Source: an uncultured Oscillospiraceae bacterium (lineage in GTDB: Bacteria > Bacillota_A > Clostridia > Oscillospirales > Oscillospiraceae). From it: 48,515 nt of DNA. Made by a program: the position numbers and the translations under genes. How positions within the stretch are numbered: position 1 is the stretch's first letter; every line of letters begins with the position of its first letter. Positions 5,527 to 28,231 of the stretch are shown here, one piece after another. The notes below the pieces were generated by a model. It saw only the letters and a list, made by a program, of their open reading frames with translations. It was not told where the DNA came from and did not search any database. The DNA lies in NCBI GenBank assembly GCA_900754605.1, contig CAAEDK010000159.1:1-48515 (forward strand). Reading direction: 5' to 3'.

Positions 5527-5542
5527 CGTTCTCCTCCTCTGC

Positions 5543-6295: not shown

Positions 6296-6320
6296 ATGGC
6301 CTTCTCCCTTCTGCTGTGTA

Positions 6321-7124: not shown

Positions 7125-7144
7125 GCAGATACCCTTCCCCATCT

Positions 7145-9232: not shown

Positions 9233-9261
9233 AACTCTCCAAGGCTCCTACTTTCTCGCCG

Positions 9262-10326: not shown

Positions 10327-10333
10327 AGCCTTC

Positions 10334-11104: not shown

Positions 11105-11115
11105 GTCCCACACCC

Positions 11116-11361: not shown

Positions 11362-11373
11362 ATTCGGATTCTC

Positions 11374-12033: not shown

Positions 12034-12036
12034 CGG

Positions 12037-12399: not shown

Positions 12400-12412
12400 T
12401 GGCCCGCTCCCG

Positions 12413-12778: not shown

Positions 12779-12806
12779 GTTCTTAATCCCCTTTTTTATT
12801 TCAGTC

Positions 12807-14063
12807 TCACTTGAAGTTTGTCAGGCTCCACAGTTCCGGCTTCTGGAGTACCTCTGTGATACGCACGCCGAAGTTATCGTCGATAACCACTACGTCTCCC
12901 CGCGCAATGCACAGGCCGTTCACAAAGACATCCACCTGGTCTCCAGCCAGCTTGTCCAGAACAACCAGTGAGCCCTTGGAGAAGGTTAAAATATCCTCTA
13001 CCTTCCGGCGGGTCCGGCCAATCTCTACCGACACCTCCAGGGGTACGGACATAATCAGCTCCAGGTTTTCCTTCTGTTCGGCTCCCAGCGATTCCGCCGC
13101 AGCGAAATTGGGCAGCGCGACCGGCTTGCTGTTAATGACCCGCGGCTCCTGCACCGGGGGCTGATACACAGGCTGCTGATAAACCGGCTGGGGGGAGGCG
13201 GCCTGATAGGCCTGGGCCGGCTGGGGAGCTGGCTCCGGCGCCGGGGCTGCGGACATGCTGCCCATCAGCCGTTCGATCTCCTCCTGACTCATCTTTCCGC
13301 TGGAAGACGGAGCCGCGGCAGGCTCTGGAGCCGGTGTGGAAACACCGCCGCCCATCAGACGCTCAATTTCTTCCTGGCTCAGCTTCCCGCCTGCGCCGGA
13401 GGAGGGCTCCGGCTGTGCGGGCTGTGCCGCTGGGGTGGCATCCGCCTCTGCTTCCCCGGTGTCCTGAATGCCCATCCCAAAGCCAGCCAGCAGCTCCCGG
13501 GCCAGCTCCACGGACATGATATTGACAAACTCACTCTTGAGGACGCCCTCTATTTCCAGGATAAAGTGCACCGCCACCAGCATCCCGGTTTCGCTGTGGA
13601 AGCGCTCCCTTTTGATCTCCTCCAAATCATCCAGCGAGAAAGACTGGGGCGTTGAGATATTGACCGGACGCCCCAGAAAATCGGACAGAGCAGTGGAGGC
13701 CGCACCCATCATCTGGTTCATCAGCTCGCACACCGCACTGATCGTCAGCTCATTGAGCTCGAACTCCTCCTCTGGGATCTCGGTTCCCATCAGCAGCTCT
13801 ACAATTGCCTTCACATCGCTCCGCTTCAGCAGCATAATATTGCTGCCTTCCAGACCGGAGACATACTTGATTTCCACTCCGATGGCGGGCTCCAGCTCAC
13901 CCAGGGTAAACTCACTGATGGGTACCACTGTAACCTTCGGCGTCGTAATATCAACGCGGTGATCCAGCAGGTTGGAAACCGCAGTGGCAGAAGAGCCCAG
14001 ACTGATGTTCATCATTTCGCCGATGGCGTCCAATTCCATCGCGCTAAATATATTCTGCGCCAT
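12807..14063 (-). CDS. fliY: Motor switch phosphatase FliY (CheC-like domain, duplicated switch peptide, FliN domain)
   Basis: 418 residues. Residues 1-200 form a CheC-like phosphatase domain with two intact active-site motifs: D12/E16/N19 and S109/E113/N116. Residues 205-320 are a Pro/Ala/Gln-rich linker that contains two near-identical peptides, KLSQEEIERLMG (227-238) and KMSQEEIERLMG (257-268), which resemble the CheY-P-binding LSQxEID motif normally at the N-terminus of FliM or FliY. Residues 325-418 are the FliN/SpoA domain (LIMSVPLEVSVEIGRTRRKV, ILTFSKGSLVVLDKLAGDQV). FliY makes the C-ring with FliM and removes phosphate from CheY-P. The extreme N-terminus lacks its own LSQ peptide. Confidence 0.94.
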   Translation of the reverse strand: MAQNIFSAMELDAIGEMMNISLGSSATAVSNLLDHRVDITTPKVTVVPISEFTLGELEPAIGVEIKYVSGLEGSNIMLLKRSDVKAIVELLMGTEIPEEEFELNELTISAVCELMNQMMGAASTALSDFLGRPVNISTPQSFSLDDLEEIKRERFHSETGMLVAVHFILEIEGVLKSEFVNIMSVELARELLAGFGMGIQDTGEAEADATPAAQPAQPEPSSGAGGKLSQEEIERLMGGGVSTPAPEPAAAPSSSGKMSQEEIERLMGSMSAAPAPEPAPQPAQAYQAASPQPVYQQPVYQPPVQEPRVINSKPVALPNFAAAESLGAEQKENLELIMSVPLEVSVEIGRTRRKVEDILTFSKGSLVVLDKLAGDQVDVFVNGLCIARGDVVVIDDNFGVRITEVLQKPELWSLTNFK

Positions 14064-14068
14064 GTCGC

Positions 14069-15082
14069 TTATTCGTCCCTTCTTCCCTCGTTATAGTAGT
14101 TTTCCCCAATCTTCACTGCCATGGAGTTGTTCTGCACACCCAGCTTCCCACCAAACCATGGCTTTCCTCCAATATACAGATAGATGGGCTCGTCCTTCGG
14201 ATGTCCCAGGTCAATGACATCACCTATATTGAGGAAATAGGCATCTTGCAGCTTTACCTCGGTACGGCCCAGCTCGGCCGTGATCTCCAGCGTGGAATCC
14301 CGCAGTATATCCATGATTTCATCCGAGTTGTCCTCCCCACTCCCGTGTCCTGCCTGATTCAACGACACAATTCTGGAAAAAATATTGGTCAGCATCATTC
14401 CGGGCAGGCAGACATCAACACGGCCGGAGCAGTTTGGAAAGCGGATATTGATCCCAACAATAACAACCGTCTCATCCAGGCCAATGAGCTGTACCAGAGT
14501 CGGATTCGTCTCCACTCTGCGCAGCTTGAAATCCAACGCGATATAATTCTCCCAGCTTCCGCCCAGAACGGAAATCAGGTCTTTTACAATGCTTTCATAG
14601 AGCCTCAGCTCCAAATTGGTGAAATTGTAGCCGGCGGGAAGTCGGCTGTCCACATCTCCATCGCCGCCCATCAGGCGATCCATCATGCTCAGCATCAGCG
14701 TAGTGGAAAAGTGAAACAGCACCGGGGTCTCATCCGGCTGTACCTGCCCCTCCAGCTCTACACCTGCCAGGGACAACACGTCCCCCTCCAGCAACGCGTT
14801 GGAAAATTCGTAATAGCGCTGTTCCTCTACGGACTCCACATCTATCTCACAAGTGGTATGCAGCAGTCCATTGATTCTGGAGTTGATGATCCTGGTATAA
14901 TTTTCAAAGATTCCACTGAGCATTTTAAGCCGGTCTTTGGTGAACTTCCTTGGGCTGTAGAAATCATATTTACGGTATTTTTTCTCGGAACTGCTCTCTG
15001 CCTTCGCGGCCAAATCCATCTCGCCGTTGCGGGCCGCGTTCAGCAGAGCGTCAATTTGGCTCTGAGATAAAACTTCCGCCAT
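14069..15082 (-). CDS. fliM: Flagellar motor switch protein FliM
   Basis: 337 residues: N-terminal CheY-P-binding peptide MAEVLSQSQIDALLN, a middle domain with the GGxG-type loop (MDRLMGGDGDV), and the C-terminal SpoA domain (EITAELGRTEVKL, YLYIGGKPWFGGK). FliM sits on FliG and changes rotor direction on binding CheY-P. Of two nearby ATGs, 15082 is preferred because GAGGAGG lies 7 nt upstream; the other (15088) is too close to that site. The usual preceding gene fliL is absent: motB ends 51 bp upstream. Confidence 0.96.
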   Translation of the reverse strand: MAEVLSQSQIDALLNAARNGEMDLAAKAESSSEKKYRKYDFYSPRKFTKDRLKMLSGIFENYTRIINSRINGLLHTTCEIDVESVEEQRYYEFSNALLEGDVLSLAGVELEGQVQPDETPVLFHFSTTLMLSMMDRLMGGDGDVDSRLPAGYNFTNLELRLYESIVKDLISVLGGSWENYIALDFKLRRVETNPTLVQLIGLDETVVIVGINIRFPNCSGRVDVCLPGMMLTNIFSRIVSLNQAGHGSGEDNSDEIMDILRDSTLEITAELGRTEVKLQDAYFLNIGDVIDLGHPKDEPIYLYIGGKPWFGGKLGVQNNSMAVKIGENYYNEGRRDE

Positions 15083-15133
15083 CTTCATCCCTCCTCGGCA
15101 GAGTTTGGGCCTTCCCCCCGTCTCCCTGCACAC

Positions 15134-15901
15134 TCAAGGATTGGCAGAAGTACCGGTACTTTCCCGCATGGTATAATATTGTGTAATGTTATCTCCGGCC
15201 TCGTCGTCCAGGTCCAGCCCTGTGACAATCAGTTCCACACGCCGGTTTTCCGCACGCCCCGCAGAGGTGTCGTTGCTGGACACGGGACGCCACTCGCCAT
15301 AGCCCACGCTGACCAGCCGGGCCGGGTCAATTATGTCTTTTTCCTGTAGGTAAATAGTAACCACTGTGGCACGGTTGGAGGCCAGGAAGCGGTCCGCCGT
15401 GACGTTGTTCACCTGGCCGGGCACGGCCTGGGCGGTATGACCCAGGACACGGATCTCGTCGATGGAGCTGCTGACCTCTGAAATAATCTGGGAGACTTCG
15501 TCCAATACAACCTTGCCCTCATCCCGCAGTTCGTAGCTGTCTCCACTAAAAAACACGGTGTCGTCAAAGGAGATAAAGACGTAGCCGTTTCCTTCGCCCA
15601 GGGTCACCTGATTGGCCATTCCAGCCTGTTGGACATAGTCCTGCATCGCCTGGTAGAGCTCCTCCATGTCCTGGTCGATATCCTCCTGGGTTCCGGTTCC
15701 CTCACCCCCGGACGCGGAGGGGGGCTGGGTTTCCGTCACCTCCTCGGTGGGGTTAAAGGACTGTACGAGCGCAATCCACTTTTCCTTGTCCAGGGTAGAC
15801 ATGGAGTAGAGCATGACAAAAAAGCACAGCAATAAGGTCACCATATCGCCGTAGGTATCCATCCAGTTGGCACCGCCGCCGCCGCTTTTTTTCTTTTTCA
15901 T
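15134..15901 (-). CDS. motB: Stator protein MotB
   Basis: 255 residues: basic N-terminus, one membrane helix with the ion-binding Asp D19 (TYGDMVTLLLCFFVMLYSMST as a family region, residues 16-36), then a periplasmic OmpA-like peptidoglycan-binding domain (VLGHTAQAVPG, ASNRATVV, VGYGEWRPV, ENRRVEL). It anchors the MotA4-5/MotB2 stator to the cell wall. Coupling ion (H+ or Na+) cannot be decided from these residues alone. It follows motA by 33 bp. Confidence 0.95.
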   Translation of the reverse strand: MKKKKSGGGGANWMDTYGDMVTLLLCFFVMLYSMSTLDKEKWIALVQSFNPTEEVTETQPPSASGGEGTGTQEDIDQDMEELYQAMQDYVQQAGMANQVTLGEGNGYVFISFDDTVFFSGDSYELRDEGKVVLDEVSQIISEVSSSIDEIRVLGHTAQAVPGQVNNVTADRFLASNRATVVTIYLQEKDIIDPARLVSVGYGEWRPVSSNDTSAGRAENRRVELIVTGLDLDDEAGDNITQYYTMRESTGTSANP

Positions 15902-15934
15902 CGTGGGTACCGCCTCCCTGAAGCAAGCCGCGGC

Positions 15935-16792
15935 TTATTTCTCCTTGCGGCGCTTCCGCTCTTTTTTCTCTCCGGTGCCGCCGCCGGATTCTCCGCCTTC
16001 CCGGAGTTTTTGGTTCATAAAGGTCATCAGGCGCTCCCGAAGGAATTTGGGGTTCTCGCCCGACTGGATCGCCATGATGCCTTCCACGATAATCTGACGG
16101 CAAAGGATCTCCTCTTCGTCCCGGGCCGTCAGGTTCGACGCGATGGGGTTGAACAGGACATGCGCCAACAGCGAACCATAAAAGGTCGTGATCAGCGCCA
16201 CCGACATACTGGGACCAAGGGTCTCCATGTCGGAGTCGGAGAGATTCTTCAGCATGTTGATCAGTCCGATCAGGGTACCGATCATACCGAAGGCCGGGGC
16301 CGCGTTGGAGCCCCGTTCATACATGGCGATGACCTCCTGATGGCGCTCCGAGGTCTGCTCGATATCATTTTCCAGAATGTTGCGCACCCGGTCCGGGTCG
16401 TTGGCGTCTACAATGAGCATGATTGCCTGCTGAAAGAAGGGGTCCTCCTGCTCCTTGGCCTTCTCCTCCAAGGCAAGCAGGCCGTTCTTTCGGGCAATCT
16501 GCGCCAGCTCGGTCAGCTTCTCCACATATTGTTCCGGATTGAACGCGTCCAGCCGGAGCATGATTTTGAAGTGCTTGGGGAAGGACTTGGCCAGCTTGGG
16601 GTAGCAGGCCACCACCACCGCAAGCGTACCGCCAAGTACGATCAGGATACTGGTGGGATCTACAAAATTGATCAGTGTATCCAGATTGAACGGACCGACC
16701 ATGAGCCCTCCGGTCCCGCCGGGATCGAAGGTAATTCCGAATATTACAAATACGAACGCCAGGACAATGCCGAGCAAATAAACAATGTTCAT
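15935..16792 (-). CDS. motA: Stator protein MotA
   Basis: 285 residues with four hydrophobic helices (about 2-20, 37-58, 150-175 and 187-205), the cytoplasmic loop with charged rotor-contact residues, and the signature AAPAFGMIGTLIGLINML. The C-terminus ends in a very basic tail (KKERKRRKEK). ATG at 16792 (MNIVYLLG) has GGAGGAG 8 nt upstream; a further in-frame extension of 13 codons lacks a ribosome-binding site. flbD ends 40 bp upstream. Confidence 0.95.
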   Translation of the reverse strand: MNIVYLLGIVLAFVFVIFGITFDPGGTGGLMVGPFNLDTLINFVDPTSILIVLGGTLAVVVACYPKLAKSFPKHFKIMLRLDAFNPEQYVEKLTELAQIARKNGLLALEEKAKEQEDPFFQQAIMLIVDANDPDRVRNILENDIEQTSERHQEVIAMYERGSNAAPAFGMIGTLIGLINMLKNLSDSDMETLGPSMSVALITTFYGSLLAHVLFNPIASNLTARDEEEILCRQIIVEGIMAIQSGENPKFLRERLMTFMNQKLREGGESGGGTGEKKERKRRKEK

Positions 16793-16832
16793 CTTTGGTT
16801 CTCCTCCCGCACGAAGATGCAGAGCAGACACA

Positions 16833-17054
16833 TCACTCTTTATACCGCTCCACGACGGCTATCTCGCGGTGAATGTCCTGTACCTTGGCGTTATACTTTG
16901 CGATCTTCTCGATGATTTCCTCGACCGTGTCCCGTACGATGTAATAGTCGTGATTCATCATGACGATTTTGCTCTCTGGAATCAGCTCAATGCACTCAAT
17001 TTGGTTGTGGTTGAGCAAAAAACGCTCATTGTTCATTTTTCTCAGTTCAATCAC
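16833..17054 (-). CDS. flbD: Flagellar protein FlbD
   Basis: A 73-residue protein of the small FlbD family (MIELRKMNNERFLLNHNQ, then ESKIVMMNHDYYIVRDTVEEI). These proteins sit between flgE and motA in Firmicutes and help motor power (SwrD in Bacillus). The start is GTG at 17054, preceded by GGGGAGGGCGG. Confidence 0.92.
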   Translation of the reverse strand: MIELRKMNNERFLLNHNQIECIELIPESKIVMMNHDYYIVRDTVEEIIEKIAKYNAKVQDIHREIAVVERYKE

Positions 17055-17078
17055 CGTGCCGCCCTCCCCTGCCCAATC

Positions 17079-17102
17079 CCCCCACGCCTGGCGGCGTGGG
17101 GG
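17079..17102 (-). promoter_or_regulatory. GC-rich hairpin between flgE and flbD
   Basis: A perfect 10-bp stem (17079-17088 with 17093-17102) and a 4-nt loop lie 20 bp after the flgE stop. No U-run follows on either strand, so it is not a standard terminator. In an operon where the hook protein is needed in far larger amounts than MotA/B, it could protect the 3' end of the flgE message or partially attenuate read-through. Function is inference. Confidence 0.55.
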
Positions 17103-17121
17103 AGATCGGCAATTCCATTTC

Positions 17122-18198
17122 TTAGCGCTTCATGTTGACCAGCTCTTCCAGCATGGTGTCGGTCACCGTAACAATGCGGGTATTTGCCTGATAGCCCCGC
17201 TGGTAAATAATCATGTTGGCAAACTCGGTGGCCAGATCCGTGCCGGAGGCCTCCAGGAAGCCGGTCATCAGTGTGGCGCCGCTGCCCTCAGCCAGTGCGG
17301 AATCGGGGTCAACCACGTTGTTTCCGTCCGTGATCTTGTCATTTCTCAGGTTTCCGGTGACGGAGTTTCCAGGGGTACCCACCCGGATATCCCCAGCGGC
17401 ATCGCCCGCCGTATAGTAGGGGCCCTCGGTATGAAGCACGCCATTGAGGTTTTCCACACTGCCCAGGGCGATGTAGCCCACCACCACCGGGTCGCCGGTG
17501 TCCTTGTTGGTGCCAGTGATCTTACCGTTCTTGTCGATGCTGATGTTCTCCAGATCTACAAAGCCGTCCACTGTGGCAGCCGGGTCATTGTCTGGATATA
17601 CATTCGCACCAGTTTGATTATCCACACCCACATAAACCGCGTCGCCCTTGCTGTTCGGGTCGGTAGACTTCATAGGAAGGCGGATGGGAACCAAGTCAGT
17701 GCTGGGCTTATCTCCCGGCGTGGTTCCGGGAGCATCCCCGTTGGACCGCGTGATAAATCCATAGACCACATTGCCCTGTCCGTCCGTCAAATAGCCGTCC
17801 CGGAACTCAAAGTTGCCCACCCGGGTCAGGGTTAGTCCCTTGAGGGCGTCCATGCTGTCGATATCGTGGGTCTTATCTCCCACCAGGAAAAAGCCGTCGC
17901 CCTGAATGGCGCAGTCCATCCCCCGTCCGGTGGAGTCCAGACTCCGACTGCTCATATCCAGGTCGATGGTGCCGATGCCCACACCATAGCCGGTCTGCCG
18001 GGGGTTGGTGCCGCCCACCGTAGCTGTTCCGGCGGAGCCGGCGGACTGGGTGCTGTAAATACTCTCCATAAACGTCACCCGGCCGGGCTTGTAGCCCTGG
18101 GTATTCACGTTTGCTACGTTGTTGCCCACTACGTTCAGTGCATCCATGTGGGCCTTCAGGCCGGAAATACCGGCACTCATTGCTCCTGTCAAAGCCAT
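17122..18198 (-). CDS. flgE: Flagellar hook protein FlgE
   Basis: 358 residues: N-terminal flg_bb_rod motif (MDALNVVGNNVANVNTQGYKPG across residues 18-39), the CAIQGDGFFLVG central motif, a variable middle (about 130-290) rich in Asp, Gly and Thr, and C-terminal EASGTDLATEFANMIIYQRGYQANTRIV region (315-342) with a coiled-coil end. Exported through the flagellar apparatus and polymerised by FlgD; length set by FliK. A 110-bp gap separates it from the preceding gene. Confidence 0.94.
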   Translation of the reverse strand: MALTGAMSAGISGLKAHMDALNVVGNNVANVNTQGYKPGRVTFMESIYSTQSAGSAGTATVGGTNPRQTGYGVGIGTIDLDMSSRSLDSTGRGMDCAIQGDGFFLVGDKTHDIDSMDALKGLTLTRVGNFEFRDGYLTDGQGNVVYGFITRSNGDAPGTTPGDKPSTDLVPIRLPMKSTDPNSKGDAVYVGVDNQTGANVYPDNDPAATVDGFVDLENISIDKNGKITGTNKDTGDPVVVGYIALGSVENLNGVLHTEGPYYTAGDAAGDIRVGTPGNSVTGNLRNDKITDGNNVVDPDSALAEGSGATLMTGFLEASGTDLATEFANMIIYQRGYQANTRIVTVTDTMLEELVNMKR

Positions 18199-18310
18199 TT
18201 GGATTCGCTCTCCTTTGCGTGCTCTGATTCATTGACATTTCTCCGGCACCGCCGGGGGACGGCCCATCCGGCCTCCCCCAGGACATCCTTTCGGTCCTGC
18301 CCTCTGTGAT

Positions 18311-18691
18311 TCACAGGATCACGGCGCCGTCAATGTTGGTAAAGATATTCTCCTTCATCTCGTCCTGGGACAGGGTGGTAATCACCCGGTTGTGGGGGAC
18401 ATTGATGATAAAGGCGAGGCTCTGGTCCAGCGCCAGGATATTCGTCGCTCCCTTGGCCTGCGCCCGCTCTACGGAGTCGGTCAGCCGGTCCAGAAGGGCG
18501 GGTGTCACTGCGATCCCGCGCTCCTCCGCCCGCGCGATGGCGTGCTTGGAAAAGGCGATCTGCCGCTCATCTGCCCGGGCCAGCTCCTGCTGAAGCACTG
18601 CTCCAAAGCCGGAAGAGGTCTGTTTCCCGGTGCTGTATGTATGGCCCCGTCCCAGCGCGGGGCTGCCGAGGCCCTCTACCGCATGCTCCAT
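18311..18691 (-). CDS. Small flagellar operon protein (TIGR02530-type)
   Basis: 126 residues. The C-terminal part (about 45-126: FSKHAIARAEERGI, LDRLTDSVERAQAKG, NILALDQSLAFIINVPHNRVIT) matches a small conserved protein found between flgD and flgE in Firmicutes and other flagellated bacteria. Its role is unknown; its constant position suggests hook assembly. No signal peptide or membrane segment. It starts 39 bp after the flgD stop. Confidence 0.85.
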   Translation of the reverse strand: MEHAVEGLGSPALGRGHTYSTGKQTSSGFGAVLQQELARADERQIAFSKHAIARAEERGIAVTPALLDRLTDSVERAQAKGATNILALDQSLAFIINVPHNRVITTLSQDEMKENIFTNIDGAVIL

Positions 18692-18730
18692 TCCGCTCTA
18701 TCCCTCCTTTGGACGGCCCCTGCCGCCCGC

Positions 18731-19336
18731 TCAAATCGTCCGGGCGCTCTCCTCCGGCGGATTCTCTCCGCCTTCTCCCGTTCCGTCGCCGTCACCGCCC
18801 TCACCGGGCCCCTCGGGCTCCTCCGGAATCTTCGGCAGCTTGCCCACCGCCATGATGGAATTCAAAGGATACATCTCGTCATTCACGAAGATCACGGGTA
18901 CCCCCTGATAGTTTCCGGTGCCCGTCACGACTCCCTCAATCTCCTGGAGCTTCCCGTCTTCGTCATATTGGCCCACCGTGACGGTTTTCCCTACCAGGGA
19001 GGCCGCATAGGTCCGGGTGCTGGCATCCACCAGGGCCTCCAGTCCGGTCTTAACGCTGGACAACATCTGTACGGTGGACATCTGCACAAGCTGGTTAAGC
19101 ATTTCGCCGGTATCCGTGGTGTTGTCAATGGTCTGGTTCTGAAGCTGCTGCACCATCAATTGGAGAAAGTCGTTAAAGTCCAGGCCCATGTCGTTCTCTC
19201 CCGGCTTGTTTACCGGAATGCCCAGCTCCTCCAGCTCTTCCTCCGTAATGCGGGAGCTCGCACCACTGCCGGCAGCCCGCGCGCTCTGCTGTCGGGCCAG
19301 ACTGTCCAGCGCCATCGGCATAAATTCACTGCTCAT
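18731..19336 (-). CDS. flgD: Hook-capping protein FlgD
   Basis: 201 residues. The conserved N-terminal block LDFNDFLQLMVQQLQNQ (52-68) followed by MLNQLVQMSTVQML is the FlgD signature; a beta domain follows (VTVGQYDEDG, GVVTGTGNYQGVPVIFV). The C-terminal tail is acidic and Gly-rich. FlgD caps the growing hook and polymerises FlgE. An unusual 50-residue N-terminal extension precedes the conserved block. Confidence 0.92.
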   Translation of the reverse strand: MSSEFMPMALDSLARQQSARAAGSGASSRITEEELEELGIPVNKPGENDMGLDFNDFLQLMVQQLQNQTIDNTTDTGEMLNQLVQMSTVQMLSSVKTGLEALVDASTRTYAASLVGKTVTVGQYDEDGKLQEIEGVVTGTGNYQGVPVIFVNDEMYPLNSIMAVGKLPKIPEEPEGPGEGGDGDGTGEGGENPPEESARTI

Positions 19337-19357
19337 TGCGTGCTACTCCTTTTTCTG

Positions 19358-20506
19358 TTACTCCGCTTCTACGCCCAGCAAGCCCAGCCGAAGCTGCTGC
19401 AGGAAGTCCTCTGTACTCTGGCGCTGCCGTCCCTGTTCCTGTGGGTTGCGGCCGTGCTGCTGTCCGGGCTGCTGCTCCGGCTGCTGCCAGGGCTGCTCTC
19501 CCTGCTGGGGCCGGGGCACCTCCACCTGGATCTCGCCGCTGTGGCTGCCGTGCAGCATGGATACCAGCGTCGCGGAGTGCTCCTGAAGCAGCTTCATGGC
19601 CTGTTCGTTCTCCGCGTGGAATACGATGTGCAGTACACCGTCCTTCCCCTGCGTCAGCTCGACAGACAGCCTTCCCAGATGCTCGGGCGCCAGCTTCAGC
19701 TCGACATGCCTGGCTCCCTCCTGCTCCGCTTCGGTAATGGCCTTTGCCAGCCTGGGTGCAAAATCGGGCTCCGTGGCGTCCAGGGTATCCGCCTCGCCCA
19801 CCTTCACCGGCATGTGCTCTGTCCGGTCAAAGAGCGGCTGCGCCGCCCCCTCCGTCTGCACACTGTCCAGCTCGGGCAGCTCCTGCTCCCCGCCGGCCGG
19901 CCGGCCCGCCGTCTCTCCAGCGTCCGCCGGGGTCTGCGCGCCGCTCTCCCGGGCCGCAGGGGTAACTACCTGGGCCGTGGCTGTACCGCCATCCTCCGCG
20001 GCAGGAAGGACCTCCGCCTGGACCGTGGACTCCGCCTCACCCGCAAGCGCCGGCTCCGCCGGTACCGGGAGCTGCTCCCCTCCGGCGGTCTGCTGCCCGG
20101 GCTGAAGCAATACGGCCCCTTCTTCCGCCGCAGCCGGAGCTTGGGCCATGCCGGGAACCGCAGTCTGCGGGACCTGCTGGAGGGATACGTCGCCCTCCAG
20201 CGCTGCCTGGGCACCCATCAGCAGGCTCCGGAACAGCTCCTCCAGCCCCGGCGCCTGGGGTACGGACTGCGCACCCTGGCTGAGCGCACCCCCATCGGCC
20301 GCAGCCGGAACCCCACCCTTTTGGCTCTCCGAAACTGCGCGTCCGGTCTCCGCTCCAGCCGCCTCCACCCGCTTCTCTGCCAGCAGCGTGGAGAAGTCCC
20401 GCCGGTCACCGGCATCCTCCGTCCGGTCGCTGACCGGCGGAGCGGTGTTTTGGGCAATCTGTGTGGCTGCCAAGGTCATCTGAAGCAATAAATCAGTTGT
20501 ATTCAT
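19358..20506 (-). CDS. fliK: Hook-length control protein FliK
   Basis: 382 residues: a long low-complexity Ala/Glu/Gln/Pro-rich ruler region and a C-terminal FliK domain (about 290-355) with RHVELKLAPEHLGRLSVEL and LLQEHSATLVSMLH, ending in a Gln-rich tail. FliK measures hook length and triggers the FlhB substrate switch. ATG at 20506 has AGGAGG 8 nt upstream; a GTG three codons earlier is less well placed. It lies between fliJ and flgD. Confidence 0.92.
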   Translation of the reverse strand: MNTTDLLLQMTLAATQIAQNTAPPVSDRTEDAGDRRDFSTLLAEKRVEAAGAETGRAVSESQKGGVPAAADGGALSQGAQSVPQAPGLEELFRSLLMGAQAALEGDVSLQQVPQTAVPGMAQAPAAAEEGAVLLQPGQQTAGGEQLPVPAEPALAGEAESTVQAEVLPAAEDGGTATAQVVTPAARESGAQTPADAGETAGRPAGGEQELPELDSVQTEGAAQPLFDRTEHMPVKVGEADTLDATEPDFAPRLAKAITEAEQEGARHVELKLAPEHLGRLSVELTQGKDGVLHIVFHAENEQAMKLLQEHSATLVSMLHGSHSGEIQVEVPRPQQGEQPWQQPEQQPGQQHGRNPQEQGRQRQSTEDFLQQLRLGLLGVEAE

Positions 20507-20542
20507 GGTTCTCACCTCCTTTCAAGGTGTGGCTCCGGGCGG

Positions 20543-20989
20543 TCAAACCGCCGTCCGGGCCCGGGCTGCGGTCACCAGCTCCTCAATCAGCAGTTCCTCG
20601 CCCTTCTGCACCTGCTTCTGATAGTCCTCCCACTTCTTGTCCTTGAGCTTTTCCAGGGAGGCGGTATCCTGCCGGGCGGCCACTACCTGCCTACGCTTCT
20701 CCTCCGCTGCGGCCTCATACTCCCGCAGGCGCTTGGCCTCCCGCTGGATCTCATCCTCCAGAAAGCGCAGGCCGCTCTCATACCGCAGGGCCTCGGCTAT
20801 GGTCAGGCCCTCCGTCTCCGCCTGCCGGAATTCCAGGTTCAGGCCCCGGTAGCGCTCCTCCGCCGCCTGGAGCACCAGCTCCTGCTGCCTTACCTGGTAA
20901 AGGAGCTGTCCATGCTCATTCTGCAGCTCCTCCAGCACCTGCTGCTTGTAGCTCAACACCGTATTCAGGCTGAACTGGAACCGCTTCAT
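20543..20989 (-). CDS. fliJ: Flagellar export chaperone FliJ
   Basis: 148 residues, nearly all alpha-helical coiled coil, beginning KRFQFSLNTVLSYKQQVLEEL, the FliJ family start. It forms the stalk of the FliI ATPase ring and shuttles chaperones. It lies 17 bp after fliI. Confidence 0.92.
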   Translation of the reverse strand: MKRFQFSLNTVLSYKQQVLEELQNEHGQLLYQVRQQELVLQAAEERYRGLNLEFRQAETEGLTIAEALRYESGLRFLEDEIQREAKRLREYEAAAEEKRRQVVAARQDTASLEKLKDKKWEDYQKQVQKGEELLIEELVTAARARTAV

Positions 20990-21006
20990 CCCTGTCCCCT
21001 CTTCTC

Positions 21007-22308
21007 TTACAGGAGCTTCCGCATGGCCTCCAGATCCTCCTCATAGGAGAACGCCTCGTCCACTCCCTGGGTCAAAAACTGGTTGATCCCGTCCATCTTT
21101 CCCAAAGCATAATCCAGCCTTGGGTTGGTGCCCGCCTTGTACGCGCCCACGGAAACCAGATCGGCATTTTTCTCATAAATCCCCATCACGTCCCGCACCC
21201 GGGCCGCAAGCCGCTTGTGCTCGTCGGAGACGATGTCCGCCATCAAACGGGAGATGCTGGCCCCAATGTCAATGGCCGGAAAATGGTTGCTGTTGGCCAG
21301 CCGCCGGGAAAGCACGATGTGCCCATCTAGAATGCCGCGCACCGTGTCCGCGATGGGCTCATTGGTGTCGTCGCCCTCCACCAGGACGGTATAGACCCCT
21401 GTGATGGAGCCCTTCTGGAAGTTGCCGCTGCGTTCCAGCAGCTTGGGCAGCTCGGCGTAGATGGATGGGGTGTAGCCGCGGCTTACCGGCGGCTCACCCA
21501 CCGCCAGGCCAATCTCCCGCTGGGCCATGGCAAACCGGGTCAGCGAGTCCATCATCAGCAGCACGTCATACCCCTGGTCCCGGAAGAACTCCGCGATTCC
21601 GGTGGCCACGGAGGGGCACTGCTTGCGCAGCATGGCGGGCTGGTCAGAGGTAGCCACCACCAGGATAGACCGCCGCATCCCCTCCGGCCCCAGATCCTTT
21701 TCCATGAATTCCAGCACCTCGCGGCCGCGCTCCCCCACCAGGGCGATGACGTTGATATCCGCCTTTACATTTTTGGCAATCATGCCCATTAGGGTACTCT
21801 TGCCCACGCCGGAGCCGGCAAAAATGCCGATGCGCTGTCCCTTTCCGATGGTCAGCATGCTGTCAATGGCCTTGACGCCGAACTCCATCCGCTCCCGGAT
21901 GGGAGGGCGGGTCATGGGGTTGATGTAGTGGTTGTTCTCCACACAGAACAGCGTGCCGCCCTGAAAGGGGCCCTTGCCGTCGATGGGCTGCCCCAGTGCA
22001 TTAATCACCCGCCCCTTCAGGAAGGGGCCCATGCGCAGGCTGAGCCTCCGCCCGGTGTTGCGCACAAAATTTCCCGCAGAGATACCGCTCATGTCTGAAT
22101 AGGGCATCAGCAGGATGTGGTCATTCTTAAAGCCAACCACCTCGGCCATTACCTGGCCGCCCGCGTCCCCGTTGTAGATCTGACAGATATCACCCACAGC
22201 GGCCCGTCCGCCGGATGCCTCGATGGACATGCCGACGATATTTTCAATTTTCCCCGTATAACTGATCGTCTCGGCCCGCTGAATCTGCCGGATCATCTCC
22301 TGGAACAT
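21007..22308 (-). CDS. fliI: Flagellar export ATPase FliI
   Basis: 433 residues, homologous to F1 beta. Walker A at 165-172 (GSGVGKST), Walker B in VLLMMDSLTRFAMAQREIGL, and the ERGREVLEF and PSIYAELPKLLERSG motifs. It energises substrate unfolding and delivery with FliH and FliJ. It is 33 bp from the fliH stop. Confidence 0.97.
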   Translation of the reverse strand: MFQEMIRQIQRAETISYTGKIENIVGMSIEASGGRAAVGDICQIYNGDAGGQVMAEVVGFKNDHILLMPYSDMSGISAGNFVRNTGRRLSLRMGPFLKGRVINALGQPIDGKGPFQGGTLFCVENNHYINPMTRPPIRERMEFGVKAIDSMLTIGKGQRIGIFAGSGVGKSTLMGMIAKNVKADINVIALVGERGREVLEFMEKDLGPEGMRRSILVVATSDQPAMLRKQCPSVATGIAEFFRDQGYDVLLMMDSLTRFAMAQREIGLAVGEPPVSRGYTPSIYAELPKLLERSGNFQKGSITGVYTVLVEGDDTNEPIADTVRGILDGHIVLSRRLANSNHFPAIDIGASISRLMADIVSDEHKRLAARVRDVMGIYEKNADLVSVGAYKAGTNPRLDYALGKMDGINQFLTQGVDEAFSYEEDLEAMRKLL

Positions 22309-22341
22309 GGCTTTGGGTCCCTTCCTTGCGCTGCCTCCGCC

Positions 22342-23133
22342 CTATATCTCGTGTATCAGGTCGCGGATATTCTTGAGCTGTGTGGAGGCGCTGGCATCAA
22401 TGATCTCATCGGGCATCTCAATGATGCAGGTGCCCGCCTCATCGTCGGACAGCGGAATGATTTTGATGTGGTCGGACAGGCCGGCCAGAGCCGTCATCAG
22501 CTCCGGCGTAATGGCAGACACCTCCTTGGCGGCACAGCCGCCCACGTAGATGTGCACCCACTCCCGCCGCTTGAGCTTTTCGGTGGCCACCTGGATCATC
22601 CGTGCCACCACCTCACTGCTGCTGTTCAGGCTGACATGGATCACCTTTTCCGCAATGGCCAGGCTGAGCTCACACAGCTCGCCCCGCGTCTCCCGCAGCA
22701 GCTCCTCCCGGGCAGCGGTGGCCTTTTCCAAAAAAGCCTGCAGCTCCTCGGCCTGCTGCTCCCGCTGCTTCTGCAGCTCCGCCTGGCCCTCGACCCCGGC
22801 CTGCCGCAGCCCTTCTGCATAGCCCTGCCGGTAGCCCTCAGACTGGGCCTGCTGGCGCACCTGCTCGGCCTCCTGCTCCGCCTCCATCTGCCGCCGGACC
22901 AGGTAGTCCTCCGCCTGCCGCCTGGCATCCTCCAGAATCTTCTCCGCCTGAATCTGTGCAAAGTCGACCGCGCTGGGGGTATCCTTTTCCTCTGCCTCTG
23001 GAGCTGATTCCTCCGGCTCTCCCTCTTGCTCGCCCGCGGTATCCGCCGGCTCCTCCTCCACAAGCTCCTCCACGTCCGGAAACACAAAGTCGGAGGCGTT
23101 GGGCTGCAAAAAGCGTTTGAATATATTAGGCAA
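22342..23133 (-). CDS. fliH: Flagellar export regulator FliH
   Basis: 263 residues: acidic N-terminus, a long Glu/Gln/Ala-rich coiled coil (about 60-150) with EGYRQGYAEGLRQAG, and a C-terminal domain related to V/F-ATPase stalk subunits (LSLAIAEKVIH, ELMTALAGLSDHI). FliH binds FliI and links it to the C-ring. The start seems to be TTG at 23133, overlapping the fliG stop by 8 bp. No ATG lies near that gives the usual N-terminus. Confidence 0.92.
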   Translation of the reverse strand: MPNIFKRFLQPNASDFVFPDVEELVEEEPADTAGEQEGEPEESAPEAEEKDTPSAVDFAQIQAEKILEDARRQAEDYLVRRQMEAEQEAEQVRQQAQSEGYRQGYAEGLRQAGVEGQAELQKQREQQAEELQAFLEKATAAREELLRETRGELCELSLAIAEKVIHVSLNSSSEVVARMIQVATEKLKRREWVHIYVGGCAAKEVSAITPELMTALAGLSDHIKIIPLSDDEAGTCIIEMPDEIIDASASTQLKNIRDLIHEI

Positions 23134-24169
23134 TAATATCGTCCTTTCCGCCCTTGAGGATAATCAGCTCGTTTTTCTCCTCCAGATCCCGGATGATCCC
23201 CACGATGCGCTGCTGGGCCTCCTCCACATCGCGCAGGCGGACGTTGGTGGTGATCTCCAGATCGTCTCGGATGCTCTGGGCCATACGGGTGGACATATTC
23301 TGGAAGATCTTGTTGGAAACCTCGCTGTTGGCGCCCTTGAGGGCCAGCACCAGATCCTTGGGATCGCAGTCCCGCAGGAAACGCTGTACCGAGCGCTCAT
23401 CCATGGTGACGATATCTTCAAACACGAACATCCGCTTCCGGATCTCGTCAGCCAGCTCGGCATTATGCTCGGACAGATGGTCGAAAATACTTTTTTCACT
23501 GGTGCGGTCCAGGTTGTTCATCACACCCGCCACATAGTCCACACCGCCCACCTTGACCTGGTTGGAAGTGAGCAGGTTTGTAAACTTTTTCTCCATTTCC
23601 GCCTCAATGATTTTTACGGCGGTCGGAGACGCACTTTCCATATTGGCGATGCTCTCCACCACCCGTACTTGGGTATTGGAGTCCAATTCCTCCACCACGG
23701 CGGCCGCCTTCTCCGGGTCAATATAGGAGAGCACCAGCGCAATCGTCTGAGGCCGCTCGTGCTGCAGCGCCGCAAACAGCGACTTGCCATCCGCCTTGTT
23801 GAGAAAAGAGAATTCCCGGTTTTTTAAGGACTTGGTTACTTTTTCCAGCAAGTTGTCTGCGGCCTGTTCTCCAAACGCCTTTTCGAGAACCGCGCGGGCG
23901 TACTCCAGGCCGCCTTCCGTTACAGCTTTGTTGGTCAGGCACATCTGGTAGTACTCATTCAGGACGTCTTCTGTAGTGGCGGCATCTACATAGCCCAGCT
24001 TCGCAACCTCGAGGGTGATCTGTTCCACATCATCGGGATCCATGTACTGATAGAGCTGGGATGCCTTCTCCGCGCCAAGAGAGATCACGACGGCCGCTGC
24101 CTTTTGCTGTCTCGTCAACTGTTTTGCAGCTTGAGAAGCGGCTGCCCCTCCGGTAGCTGTCTCGCTCAT
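23126..24169 (-). CDS. fliG: Flagellar motor switch protein FliG
   Basis: 347 residues with the three FliG domains: N-terminal LTRQQKAAAVVISLG, the middle EHxPQ-like motif at QHERPQTIALVLSYI, and the C-terminal rotor-stator domain with FVFEDIVTMDERSVQRFLRDCDPKDLVLALKG (as a region, residues ~247-279) and charged residues facing MotA. It mounts on FliF and overlaps both neighbours (4 bp with fliF, 8 bp with fliH). Confidence 0.97.
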   Translation of the reverse strand: MSETATGGAAASQAAKQLTRQQKAAAVVISLGAEKASQLYQYMDPDDVEQITLEVAKLGYVDAATTEDVLNEYYQMCLTNKAVTEGGLEYARAVLEKAFGEQAADNLLEKVTKSLKNREFSFLNKADGKSLFAALQHERPQTIALVLSYIDPEKAAAVVEELDSNTQVRVVESIANMESASPTAVKIIEAEMEKKFTNLLTSNQVKVGGVDYVAGVMNNLDRTSEKSIFDHLSEHNAELADEIRKRMFVFEDIVTMDERSVQRFLRDCDPKDLVLALKGANSEVSNKIFQNMSTRMAQSIRDDLEITTNVRLRDVEEAQQRIVGIIRDLEEKNELIILKGGKDDIIA

Positions 24170-25773
24170 TCGCCATCCCCCTCACGCAGCCAGCTCTTGA
24201 CCATCTGAGCCGCAATCTCTGGATTGTCCTCGGCAAACTTCCGGACATCCTTCCGCAGTTCCATACTCTTTTCCGTCTGAAGATTCATAATATCCGCCCC
24301 CTCCTGCGGCGTGAGCGGAGCGGTCTCCGTCTGGGCCACGGCGGCCAGTCCCGCCGCCTCCAGTTCTTTGCGCCGCTTCCGGCGGCGCCGGCCTAGCAGG
24401 AGGATCACCAGCAGGAGTACCAGGAACAGTACGCCGCCTCCTGCGGCCGCGTAGATCACCCAGGCCGGGATTCCCTCCGGCACCGGGAGCACAGGCTCAT
24501 CCGCCTGGTAGAAGGGGCTGATCAACACCGAGATCTTGTCCCGCTGATCTGCCGTGGCGATGCCCGCTGCCCGGGCAACGTGAGGATACAGCGCGGCCGC
24601 ATCCGTACCGTCCGCCGCCGCCTGATTGATCGTGACGGATACCATGACATCGCTCACTGTGCCCGACAGGTGCTCCACCTGCTGATTCGTCTCATCCACC
24701 AGGTATTTTTTATCTCCGGAGACGTGGACGATCTGGCCTTCCCCATCCGTCTCCCCGTCCTCGTTCACATACTGGTTCAGATCAGCATTGGTGCTCGTAC
24801 CAGGCACGCCTCCGGCCGTGTCGCCGCCGGGAAGGAGGATGTCCCCCTCATAGATCTTCTCCCCGATGATACCCTCACCGCCGGTACTGCCGTCATTGGC
24901 CCAGTCCTCCAGATTGTAATCGGTGGAGTCCGTATAGCTGCGGTCCAGATCCACAATGCTGTTGACACTGACTTTGACGTTCTCCGTACCGTAAATCGGT
25001 GTGAGTACCTGTAGCACGCTGGTGCGGATTTTATTATTGATCTGCTCCTCCAACTGGAGCTTCAGCGTGGACAAATCCTGGATATCCGTAAAGGTATCCC
25101 CCGCAGAATAGGTGTTCCCGTAAGAGTCTGTGATGGTGACATTGTCAATTTCCAGTCCCTGAACGGAGTGGCTGACAAAATTGCGGATGCCCTGCACCTG
25201 CTTTTGAGTGAGCTCTGCTCCGTCCCGCATGGTCACAAAAACGGCGGCGCTGGCATCATACTTGTTTTCGCTGTCCAGAATGAAGGTGTTGTCCTCCCCC
25301 GGCGTGATATCCACGACGGCCTCCTGGACCCCGTCAAAGCAACGAACCACCGCCGCAATGCGATCCTGGAGCTCATAGAGCTCCAACTGCTCCCGTTCTC
25401 CCTCCGTGGTCAGGCTCCCCACATGATCCAAATACATGGAGTAGGCGAAGCCGGACTTGGGGTAGCCCTGCTGGGCCAACGCCGCCTTGAGCCGTACCTC
25501 CTGCTCCGCCGGCACCAGAATTGTATCGCTTCCCTCAATCCGGTAATCGGCCATTCCCTGCTCGGACAGATAGGACACAATTTCATTTAATTCCGTCTGA
25601 TTGAGCCCGGTGAACAGGGTCGTATAGGGCTGGTTCATCTGCATCGCCAATACGACTGCAACGACAGCCACGACCGCAATCAGGCCGGCTATCAGGAAGA
25701 GCTTCACCTTTTTCCCGGCCGCCTTCCACCAACCTGCCACCTTGCCCAGGTATCCTTTTATTTTCTCCTGCAC
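24166..25773 (-). CDS. fliF: MS-ring protein FliF
   Basis: About 535 residues: N-terminal membrane helix (FLIAGLIAVVAVVAVVLAMQM), YscJ-like ring-building domain (YTTLFTGLNQTELNEIVSYL, GSDTILVPAEQEVRLKAALA), a C-terminal domain, a second membrane helix (VIYAAAGGGVLFLVLLLVILLLG) and the FliG-binding tail ENPEIAAQMVKSWLREG. GTG at 25773 is preferred because GGGGGT lies 7 nt upstream and the resulting start (QEKIKGYLGKVAGWW) resembles other FliF proteins; TTG at 25797 is the alternative. Confidence 0.96.
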   Translation of the reverse strand: MQEKIKGYLGKVAGWWKAAGKKVKLFLIAGLIAVVAVVAVVLAMQMNQPYTTLFTGLNQTELNEIVSYLSEQGMADYRIEGSDTILVPAEQEVRLKAALAQQGYPKSGFAYSMYLDHVGSLTTEGEREQLELYELQDRIAAVVRCFDGVQEAVVDITPGEDNTFILDSENKYDASAAVFVTMRDGAELTQKQVQGIRNFVSHSVQGLEIDNVTITDSYGNTYSAGDTFTDIQDLSTLKLQLEEQINNKIRTSVLQVLTPIYGTENVKVSVNSIVDLDRSYTDSTDYNLEDWANDGSTGGEGIIGEKIYEGDILLPGGDTAGGVPGTSTNADLNQYVNEDGETDGEGQIVHVSGDKKYLVDETNQQVEHLSGTVSDVMVSVTINQAAADGTDAAALYPHVARAAGIATADQRDKISVLISPFYQADEPVLPVPEGIPAWVIYAAAGGGVLFLVLLLVILLLGRRRRKRRKELEAAGLAAVAQTETAPLTPQEGADIMNLQTEKSMELRKDVRKFAEDNPEIAAQMVKSWLREGDGE

Positions 25774-25800
25774 ACTTGTTACCCCCAGCTCCGGCAAACC

Positions 25801-26130
25801 TTACACGCTGAGGCGCATAAGCTCGTTATAGGACTCCACTGCCTTATTTCTGAGCTGAATCAACAGTTCCAGCGACGCCTGCGCCTCCGTGATGGAAGTC
25901 ATCAGCGCCGCCGGATTGTCCAGTTGGCCGGTAGCGAGTTGATATGCCACCTCATTTTTGGCCGCGTCCGTCTCCCGTACGCGGTCAATGGCCGACTGAA
26001 AAATATCAGAAAACAGGGTCGGCTGGGTACGCCGGGTACCGCCCACTTCCGCGCCCGCATCCAGGCGCATGCCCTCTGTCTGCAAGTCCGTCCACAGCGG
26101 CTGAATCCTATCGATTGCTTGCACACTCAT
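25801..26130 (-). CDS. fliE: MS-ring/rod adaptor FliE
   Basis: 109 residues: FSDIFQSAIDRVRETDAAKNEVAYQLATGQ and the C-terminal MTSITEAQASLELLIQLRNKAVESYNELMRL helix, both family signatures (given as landmarks at about 40-70 and 77-107). FliE joins the MS ring to the rod. ATG at 26130 (MSVQAIDRI) has GGAGAG 6 nt upstream. Confidence 0.94.
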   Translation of the reverse strand: MSVQAIDRIQPLWTDLQTEGMRLDAGAEVGGTRRTQPTLFSDIFQSAIDRVRETDAAKNEVAYQLATGQLDNPAALMTSITEAQASLELLIQLRNKAVESYNELMRLSV

Positions 26131-26187
26131 ACTCGTCTCTCCTTCGTGTGTCCCGTGCAAAACCGTCCCATTCCCTGCGGCACAGGC

Positions 26188-26637
26188 TTACTTTCCGATC
26201 TCCAGTCCCTTGGCCACGACCTGCTTCAGGACGTTAAATGCAGTAATGTTGGCCGACAGCGCCTGATTGGCCGCCATAGCGTCCGACATCTCTTTGATCA
26301 AATCCACGTTGGGCATCTCCACATACCCCTCCGCATTTGCATCCGGGTGGGTCGGGTCATACACCAGCTTAAAATCCGAGGGATCCTCGGCGATCTCCAC
26401 CACACGCACCCCTCCGGCCTGGGCGGGAGCCGCCGCGCTTCCGGCGCGGGCCAGCGCCAACTGAAACGGCGTGCGCTCCCCCTGCTCCTCCAGCACCACA
26501 ACCTTTCTCCGATAGGGGCCGCCCCCCTCGGTACGGGTGGTGTTGATGTTCGTTATATTTTCAGAGATCACATCCAGGCGCAGCATTTCCGCAGTCAGAG
26601 CCGAGCCTACCACGTTCATTGAACTCATAAACGCCAC
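26188..26637 (-). CDS. flgC: Proximal rod protein FlgC
   Basis: 149 residues: N-terminal SALTAEMLRLDVISENITNINTT, the PYRRKVVVLEE strand, DPTHPDANAEGYVEMPNVD and the C-terminal helix MAANQALSANITAFNVLK. The GTG at 26637 is favoured because GGGGGAA lies 6 nt upstream; ATG at 26628 is too far from it. It is 12 bp after flgB. Confidence 0.95.
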   Translation of the reverse strand: MAFMSSMNVVGSALTAEMLRLDVISENITNINTTRTEGGGPYRRKVVVLEEQGERTPFQLALARAGSAAAPAQAGGVRVVEIAEDPSDFKLVYDPTHPDANAEGYVEMPNVDLIKEMSDAMAANQALSANITAFNVLKQVVAKGLEIGK

Positions 26638-26649
26638 TTTGATTCCCCC

Positions 26650-27033
26650 TTATCCCCGGATTGCGGTACGCAGCAGCGACAGTTCACCCGAAATAGCACT
26701 CATGACATACTGGAGCTGATAGCCATTTCGCGCCAGCTCCACCGACTGCTCCATAATATCCACCCCATTGTCGTCCATCCGGACGCTCTCCTGCGCCTCG
26801 TGAAGCTGTACCGGGGTGTCTACAATTGCCTCACGCATGGCGGCGCCCGGCTGGGGCTTGTCCGCCGCGGCCTGGACCGCATCCCTCAGGCTCTCCTCAA
26901 ATGTGACATATTGGGTCTTGTAGCCGGGGGTTTCTGCGTTGGCCAGATTATTTAAAATACAGTCCTGCTTGCTCCAAAGAAATCCCATGGACCGCTGAAG
27001 CATCAGCATGGAGTTGCTGGTCAGAATGTTCAC
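26650..27033 (-). CDS. flgB: Proximal rod protein FlgB, first gene of the flagellar operon
   Basis: 127 residues from GTG at 27033 (NILTSNSMLMLQRSMGFLW), with ILNNLANAETPGYK (the rod-protein signature) and the C-terminal SVELARNGYQLQYVMSAISG. GGAAGG lies 7 nt before the GTG. A longer in-frame reading to 27105 would extend into the recombination site region and has no family support. There is no promoter between the start and the left inverted repeat (57 bp), so expression must come from the invertible segment or from read-through of the recombinase gene. Confidence 0.94.
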   Translation of the reverse strand: MNILTSNSMLMLQRSMGFLWSKQDCILNNLANAETPGYKTQYVTFEESLRDAVQAAADKPQPGAAMREAIVDTPVQLHEAQESVRMDDNGVDIMEQSVELARNGYQLQYVMSAISGELSLLRTAIRG

Positions 27034-27090: not shown

Positions 27091-27116
27091 ACAACATAAT
27101 GACACATTATGTTGTT
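27091..27116. repeat. Left inverted repeat of the flagellar switch (IR-L)
   Basis: 26 bp identical to the reverse complement of 27322-27347. Each copy is itself a near-palindrome: a 10-bp arm ACAACATAAT, a 5-bp asymmetric core GACAC, and the arm's reverse complement ATTATGTTGT. This is the layout of a tyrosine recombinase core site, with two recombinase-binding arms around the crossover region. It lies 57 bp upstream of the flgB start codon. Confidence 0.93.
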
Positions 27117-27321
27117 AAATCAAGCTGGCTTTTGAGGCTGTTGTTTCAAATGCAGAGGTACTCACTCGAAGGGCCCTGTAAGAATACATAAAAGGCGGCT
27201 GCAATTTTCGCAATTCTTATAGTTAAGAATAAACTTCTGTTTTTAGAAATATTGGGCTTGAAGTAAATAAAAAAATGGTATAAAATTAAAGTCAGAATTT
27301 GGCGAAATTAGTCGAGTGCGG
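27117..27321. mobile_element. Invertible promoter segment upstream of the flagellar operon
   Basis: 205 bp between perfect inverted repeats, AT-rich against GC-rich neighbours, with no coding potential of its own apart from the last codons of the recombinase. It carries a sigma-A-type promoter on the plus strand and an 18-bp inverted repeat (27213-27230, ATTCTTA-tagt-TAAGAAT) that could be a regulator site. In the present orientation the promoter fires rightwards, away from flgB. After inversion it would fire into flgB with a leader of about 115 nt. The inversion itself is inferred from structure; read pairs would be needed to prove it. Confidence 0.85.
27258..27286 (+). promoter_or_regulatory. 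Sigma-A-type promoter inside the invertible segment
   Basis: TTGAAG (27258-27263), 17-bp AT-rich spacer, TAAAAT (27281-27286); the same stretch also reads as an extended -10, TGGTATAAA (27276-27284). Transcription would start near 27292 and run rightwards, antisense to the recombinase 3' end in the given orientation, or into flgB after inversion. Confidence 0.7.
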
Positions 27322-28231
27322 AACAACATAATGTGTCATTATGTTGTTCCTGATTTTGGCATGCCGCTTGATACGGAACTGTCAGGTGAAGCGATTCCAA
27401 CTGTTCCCGGTGTTCCGCCCCGCTGGAGACAACGTAGATCCGGGTCGTGTTGACATTTTCATGCCCAAGGATATCCGCCAGACGCGAGATATCCTTTTCT
27501 TTTTTATAAAAAGTACGGGCAAACAGGTGTCTTAGGTTGTGCGGATATACTTTTTCCGGCCCAACTTGTGCAGATTTGCACAGCCGTTTCATGGCATTCC
27601 AAATGTTGCTGCGGTTCAGTGTCCGCCCCCCGCGGGTAACAAAAATTGGTCCATCCTGGATTCCACGCTCCCTGGCATAGTCCAGCAAATTTCGGCACAG
27701 CTCCTTTGGTATCAGTATGATACGGCTTTTCCCCTTATTGCTTGCAATTGCTCTTCCAAGACGGGCCGCTTCCACCGTGATATAGGCAAGTTCACTTACC
27801 CGAATTCCAGTCGCACAAATTGTCTGAATCGCCAGGTGGAGCCGCATATCCCCATTTCGTCGGGCTGCCTCCAGCAGGCGGAAGTATTCGGCCTGGCTCA
27901 ACTCTTTTTTCTTATCGCAGAAGGTCTGCCGCTGTACCTTAAGCGGCTTGACGCAGCAGTCCCCGGCCCCTTGGAAGCGTAAAAACTGGTTCAGTGCAAT
28001 CAGCATGGAATTGGTACTGCGCACAGCGTAATGCTCCGCCAGCCAGGCCTTGTATTGGATCACATCCTCCTTACAGACGGTCTGTTTTCCGTGATACGAT
28101 AAAAAGCGTCGAACATCATGAGTATATTTTTGGATGGTCGCTTCTCTCTTTTCATCCAATATAAGCTGCTTTCTAAACGATTCCACTGCATTTTCCGCCA
28201 ATTGATAGGTCTGATTCACTAATTTTTGCAT
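27308..28231 (-). CDS. Tyrosine recombinase, probable invertase of the flagellar switch
   Basis: 307 residues: N-terminal SAM-like core-binding domain (about 15-105) and a C-terminal catalytic domain with the tyrosine recombinase set: Arg in ATGIRVSEL, Lys in ASNKGKSRIILIPK, HxxR in HNLRHLFA, His in LGHENVNTTRIYV with the nucleophilic Tyr. Size and layout resemble XerC/XerD and the single-subunit phase-variation invertases (RecV, Mpi). Its 3' end contains one of the two recombination sites, and the other is 231 bp away, so it is the natural candidate to act on them. No phage or conjugation gene is nearby. GGAGGG lies 12 nt before the ATG. Its base composition is lower in GC than the flagellar genes, consistent with separate acquisition. 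Confidence 0.9.
   Translation of the reverse strand: MQKLVNQTYQLAENAVESFRKQLILDEKREATIQKYTHDVRRFLSYHGKQTVCKEDVIQYKAWLAEHYAVRSTNSMLIALNQFLRFQGAGDCCVKPLKVQRQTFCDKKKELSQAEYFRLLEAARRNGDMRLHLAIQTICATGIRVSELAYITVEAARLGRAIASNKGKSRIILIPKELCRNLLDYARERGIQDGPIFVTRGGRTLNRSNIWNAMKRLCKSAQVGPEKVYPHNLRHLFARTFYKKEKDISRLADILGHENVNTTRIYVVSSGAEHREQLESLHLTVPYQAACQNQEQHNDTLCCSALD
27322..27347. repeat. Right inverted repeat of the flagellar switch (IR-R), inside the recombinase gene
   Basis: Perfect inverted partner of 27091-27116. It falls within the last codons of the tyrosine recombinase gene and encodes residues QHNDTLCC of its tail. After inversion the reading frame would hit TAA directly after these residues, shortening the protein by four residues (SALD). 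Confidence 0.93.

Follow-up and report, generated by a model that had tools for sequence, protein, structure and literature searches.

A predicted invertible promoter beside a tyrosine recombinase gene as a likely ON/OFF switch of a flagellar and chemotaxis gene cluster in an uncultured Oscillospiraceae bacterium

The analyzed stretch of DNA (48,515 nucleotides from an uncultured Oscillospiraceae bacterium, here called the window) carries a large motility gene cluster and a tyrosine recombinase gene, with a pair of inverted repeats between them (Table 1). The cluster consists of 31 minus-strand open reading frames (ORFs) with intergenic gaps of at most 112 nt, a count that agrees with the first-pass annotation of this locus, which had placed 31 motility genes beside a putative switch. 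Based on Pfam and NCBIfam profiles, these ORFs encode flagellar, motor and chemotaxis proteins as well as a sigma factor, the last gene being of the EAL-HDOD type; the FliJ ORF scores just below its Pfam cut-off. The recombinase contains the complete catalytic set R-K-H-R-H-Y of tyrosine recombinases (R144, K168, H231, R234, H257 and Y266) and was aligned with XerC-like and XerA chains. Further, a long G+C-rich perfect hairpin (28351-28394) is located between the recombinase gene and a minus-strand gene encoding an SLH/Big_2-domain protein (28403-31987), and looks like an intrinsic terminator separating the two. Another minus-strand gene (32059-37056) encodes a 1665-aa protein in which S-layer homology domains are the only domains recognized by Pfam and which is probably a large surface protein adjoining the motility cluster.

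Table 1. Features of the predicted switch and its target cluster (coordinates refer to the window).
Feature	Coordinates	Strand	Remarks
Predicted invertible segment, including repeats	27091..27347	.	257 bp; window in predicted OFF orientation
Left inverted repeat, candidate recombination site	27091..27116	+	Center ACA
Right inverted repeat, candidate recombination site	27322..27347	-	Within last codons of recombinase gene
Sigma-A-like promoter match, TTGAAG-17-TAAAAT	27258..27286	+	Away from flgB here; toward flgB after inversion
Tyrosine recombinase, predicted to flip the segment	27308..28231	-	307 aa; Pfam Phage_integrase, 3.9e-24
flgB, first gene of target operon	26650..27033	-	GTG start at 27033
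31 closely packed flagellar/chemotaxis genes, flgB to EAL-HDOD	1421..27033	-	Predicted single transcript
Sigma factor gene within cluster	6321-7142		

The two inverted repeats are perfect over 26 nt each (100% complementary), with 205 nt separating the arms, and are found between the recombinase gene on the right and flgB on the left, just as the first-pass annotation had described. Each repeat contains a 25-nt palindromic site; the earlier description as a palindrome with an asymmetric core holds, while its count of 10+5+10 nt is revised to 11-nt arms around a 3-nt center (ACA/TGT). This site is present twice in the 48.5 kb at up to 3 mismatches, with no match elsewhere in the window, and none of 100 shuffled sequences yielded any. 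A short segment flanked by inverted repeats, as found here, is the basic layout of an inverton. The right repeat additionally falls inside the recombinase reading frame, a point absent from the earlier note, and because it lies within the last codons, inversion would change the C-terminus of the recombinase.

The sigma-A/extended -10 promoter claimed earlier to lie within the segment is present as a sequence match, though at chance level when taken alone. It can alternatively be read as TTGAAG-15-TATAAA with an extended -10 element (TGn). Scored with an ad hoc weight matrix built from recall, the match reaches a modest 10.2, a score of 10 being attained by 11.6% of single strands in shuffles that preserve base composition only; a separate scan gave 3 sites resembling promoters, where shuffles gave 1.5 (sd 1.3). 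The candidate promoter faces away from flgB, which had also gone unmentioned before. The best flgB-directed match within the segment scores 5.89, and the same scan places no promoter wholly between the left repeat and flgB. Given this direction, the weak flgB-directed match and the lack of one between the left repeat and flgB, the window is predicted to represent the OFF state. After inversion, the -10 box would, by computation, end 118 nt upstream of the flgB start codon, and judged by sequence the segment thus has the internal promoter, able to face its target after inversion, that is expected of an inverton. Among 56 flgB loci of the same bacterial family that lack the switch, a promoter match scoring at least 10 points toward flgB in 33 and away from it in 6 (7.9% of shuffles, again preserving base composition only), so that the invertible promoter appears to occupy the place of a fixed one in many relatives. 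The weight of the putative window promoter rests on comparisons with relatives.

A search for related loci yielded three relatives, the first at 52% and the others at 31%. That the switch might be confined to the source strain was rejected, the same arrangement being found in relatives. The nearest genome compared (G001) contains 84% of the 31-letter words sampled from the window and has the same recombinase-repeats-flgB arrangement in the same orientation, with the promoter directed away from flgB. The flanks of the two are 99% identical, whereas the segment interior shows 57-88% identity per bin around identical -35 and -10 boxes. The repeats are retained in G001, and both spacers have changed in concert from ACA/TGT to AGA/TCT, in keeping with the earlier expectation that relatives which keep the recombinase should conserve the repeats. 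Recombinase, repeats and flgB-flgC also follow each other in this order in G020, another species of G001's genus, and in G143, a complete genome from another genus; in both, the best promoter match points toward flgB (scores of 12.18 and 10.32, respectively). The flipped form that the first-pass annotation had suggested looking for in other assemblies is not seen in G001; the best promoter match is opposite in G020 and G143. In genome-wide searches at up to 2 mismatches, exactly two sites were found in G001 and exactly two in G020; no match was obtained in G143, whose site is too short for the pattern by one base.

Across the bacterial family, most of the flagellated relatives examined are without the switch. 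From 63 genomes with a flgC match, 61 flgB/flgC loci were examined (60 plus L034; G059 and G268 were left out), and the recombinase with matching repeats is found only in G001 and G143; flgB was placed in 59 of the 61, and in 5 the sequence upstream of flgB is shorter than 600 nt, so that a recombinase might have been missed. Within G001's genus, 8 of 20 species examined have a flgC match and the switch occurs in G001 and G020 only. At one further locus (L068 in G312, 4228-4561), a repeat of 17-20 nt occurs three times, in inverted relation, just 5′ of flgB (4603), and the 4.6 kb examined contain no recombinase of the same family. These copies may belong to another flagellar switch operated from a different locus, or may have arisen by chance.

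Because the right site encodes part of the recombinase C-terminus, each inversion is computed to swap the last residues of the protein. For G001, the computed tails are NETLCCYALDKIP in the normal and NETLCY in the inverted state. Among the 120 matches listed out of 7741, the ends of five close public proteins can be compared: exactly NETLCY in P0002 and P0005, a window-like SALD in P0003 and P0006, and in P0004 a diverged tail that looks uninverted. A sixth protein, P0007 (79%), ends differently and lacks the repeat-encoded tail. By inspection, arriving at NETLCY without inversion would need two base changes, both matching the flank of the other site. Both NETLCY proteins are internally rearranged, with a duplication in P0002 and a deletion in P0005, and the N-terminus of P0006 is foreign; P0002 and P0005 each form a cluster with a single member and are known here as protein sequences alone, from lists that give cluster representatives only. 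The last residues of the recombinase would report the orientation of the segment, and protein databases and proteomics could therefore be read for switch state. The combination of cis-encoded recombinase, invertible promoter and flagellar target put forward in the first pass gains support from G001, G020 and G143 and from this inverted tail. The shared orientation of the window and G001 is also consistent with a switch that worked in ancestors but has since become locked in the source strain, with motility fixed OFF or driven from elsewhere. We regard such locking as very improbable in light of the perfect repeats, the co-changed spacers, the intact recombinase with its catalytic residues present and the occurrence of the inverted tail in near relatives.

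Successive searches for relatives of the recombinase gathered 99 loci (30 + 1/3 + 3/6 + 25 + 40/60), 12 of which have too little sequence past the stop codon, leaving 87 usable. In 75 of the 87, one arm of a repeat pair with 16 or more matches sits at the recombinase 3′ end, compared with 0 of 1740 shuffles and 1 of 86 downstream controls. The target is flgB at three of the 87 and a variety of genes at the others (among the 75 scanned: DUF4379 in 7, Band_7 in 6, Listeria-Bacteroides repeat in 5, and others), and Flg_bb_rod shows 2 members versus 3 flagellar loci, the ORF at L125 having been picked in the wrong frame. Each repeat of the window is a palindrome that could form a hairpin, and repeats of this kind might have nothing to do with recombination, serving for instance as paired terminators or protein-binding palindromes. 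The right repeat is indeed terminator-like, but the 1 such feature found compares with 2.2 expected by chance, and the recurrence of such a pair in the same position next to different genes in 75 of the 87 loci, together with the occurrence of the segments in both orientations, makes a role outside recombination extremely unlikely. At three loci (L012, L019 and L126), the ORF past the recombinase resembles a second protein of the recombinase type whose N-terminus is SAM-like; Phage_int_SAM_1 was recognized by Pfam in 2 of the 75 scanned targets, and L012 is without detected repeats.

The strongest promoter match within the 75 cassettes points toward the target in 19, away from it in 51 and is unclear in 5. 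From the end of the -10 box to the far end of the segment, the median distance is 66 or 65 nt in the two orientation classes, and judged by these predicted promoters the family cassettes are one kind of element seen in both orientations. Predicted OFF outnumbers predicted ON 51 to 19 in the family assemblies, a bias for which a growth advantage, the kinetics of the recombinase or erroneous promoter calls might account. Pairwise comparison of 87 segments yielded 37 pairs matching in the same sense and 14 inverted, with some pairs in both groups and several of the matches short; three inverted pairs extend over more than 175 nt. In the pair L206/L212, an inverted segment (78% over 179 nt) lies between flanks that are collinear on both sides (83% over 211 nt and 86% over 593). 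In the inverted pairs of L165 with L180 and L188, the recombinase side is collinear, and the target sides are without alignment. Both orientations of such segments are seen across the cassette family; for the flagellar switch, the opposite promoter matches of G020 and G143 and the inverted tail in 2 of the 5 close proteins may reflect the same. Among the 62 of 75 loci with a placeable center, both arms have the spacer in common in 61, as against 24 of 2228 between-locus comparisons, an agreement that is partly built into the repeat finding. Nineteen later loci gave 13 with repeats of at least 16 matches and none with flgB or flgC; two of the 19 have less than 80 nt past the stop codon, and L215 repeats L169.

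In the recombinase tree, the proteins of the window, G001 and G020 form a clade (100/97) with all 10 public proteins included, which had been chosen among the best matches, and the G143 recombinase falls just outside, together with L162 (93/73). One exclusive clade of flagellar recombinases is not supported. Because the flagellar label needs three changes on the tree, a single origin with losses or retargeting and several separate recruitments are both compatible with it. The repeat-encoded tail (H/Q)N-x-x-LC, or a close variant, is present in 16 of 121 proteins examined.

We propose, with a probability of roughly 0.84, that an invertible promoter flipped by the adjoining recombinase switches the 31-gene flagellar and chemotaxis cluster between the OFF state represented by the window and an ON state. 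In the OFF state, the promoter would be directed at the recombinase gene, and the leader between the left repeat and flgB would have no promoter of its own. Strand exchange by the recombinase would take place at the centers of the two palindromic sites, and the inverted segment would then drive the flgB operon as a single transcript. Since the operon includes a sigma factor, sigma-28-type genes elsewhere would presumably be switched as well, as would motility. As a doubtful extension, the switch may rewrite its own enzyme: each flip would give the recombinase a new C-terminal tail, the OFF promoter would run antisense into its gene, and feedback on recombinase amount or activity would set the ON/OFF bias, with the (H/Q)N-x-x-LC tail marking a clade of self-editing flagellar invertases.

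A known flagellar switch is the flg switch of Clostridioides difficile, with the recV gene distant from the switch locus. According to PMC5386303 and PMC7446863, an invertible segment of 154 bp with 21-bp imperfect repeats lies just 5′ of the flgB operon, within its 5′ leader, and is inverted by the tyrosine recombinase RecV to turn flagella ON or OFF in a Rho-dependent manner; a c-di-GMP riboswitch is located upstream, and RecV also flips other switches. The C. difficile segment is described as being without a functional promoter (PMC7446863), so that the difference noted in the first pass, which concerned gene arrangement and site sequence, goes deeper than had been stated. The repeats of the C. 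difficile switch are of another sequence than those of the window. Here, the scan places a promoter inside the segment and none wholly between segment and flgB, and the recombinase gene adjoins the repeats, which sets it apart from RecV by position. Rfam gave six matches at 26900-28500, all far under their gathering scores, and none to a c-di-GMP riboswitch at E ≤1.

A segment working in the C. difficile manner, with transcription starting outside, for example at the recombinase gene, and orientation deciding read-through of the leader RNA, appears improbable for this locus. The recombinase gene is upstream of and co-directional with flgB, which would permit read-through; a weak match to a promoter (score 8.79) is found upstream of this gene, and plus-strand RNA starting at 27287 folds strongly (z -4.84). 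These points are opposed by the family-wide internal promoter at a fixed place in both orientations, by the flgB-adjacent leader, which has no unusual fold (z 0.95), and by the absence of a recognizable riboswitch at 26900-28500. The best reading is ON/OFF phase variation of the flagellar operon through putative promoter inversion by a cis-encoded recombinase.

Similar geometry has been described for inverton group 139 and invertase group 35 from the gut, in which a tyrosine recombinase lies near a short invertible segment and which belong to Clostridia in 32 of 33 cases (PMC11892184). The Clostridium sp. D5 example of group 139 has 26-nt repeats 205 nt apart, with orientation shifts in culture (PMC11892184). 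Repeat length and spacing are the same at the present locus, where a tyrosine recombinase likewise sits beside the segment, and the cassette family likely corresponds to inverton group 139 with invertase group 35, matched by geometry and description. The words 'flagell' and 'motility' are absent from the main text of PMC11892184.

The proposed switch would act in the manner of fim and of other switches in which a promoter is inverted and a tyrosine recombinase is encoded next to it. The fim recombinase genes adjoin fimS, and the system controls fimbriae with two recombinases of biased direction and accessory DNA-bending proteins. In Escherichia coli, the promoter of this surface-organelle operon is inverted by the tyrosine recombinases FimB and FimE (PMC7446863, PMC9993118). 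The Hin switch of Salmonella combines an invertible promoter, a cis-encoded invertase and a flagellar target, as does the present locus. The hin gene, however, lies inside its own segment, and Hin swaps flagellins instead of switching the whole organelle. Hin is a serine recombinase (PMC11868660). Among the literature titles and abstract openings covered, mostly from outside subscription journals, none announces an invertible promoter that has a recombinase of its own and controls an entire flagellar operon.

Given the cost of flagella and the strength of flagellin as an immune signal, an all-or-none heritable switch acting on the entire flagellar and chemotaxis operon would divide a clonal population into a motile and a non-motile part. 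If the proposed reading is true, flagellar phase variation by DNA inversion has a second design besides that of C. difficile, in which promoter inversion is combined with a dedicated neighboring recombinase. The wider family would further offer many natural ON/OFF cassettes in which bias and site specificity can be compared. One of its cassettes, L193, has 70-nt arms (69 matches) and shows an equally strong promoter match in both orientations.
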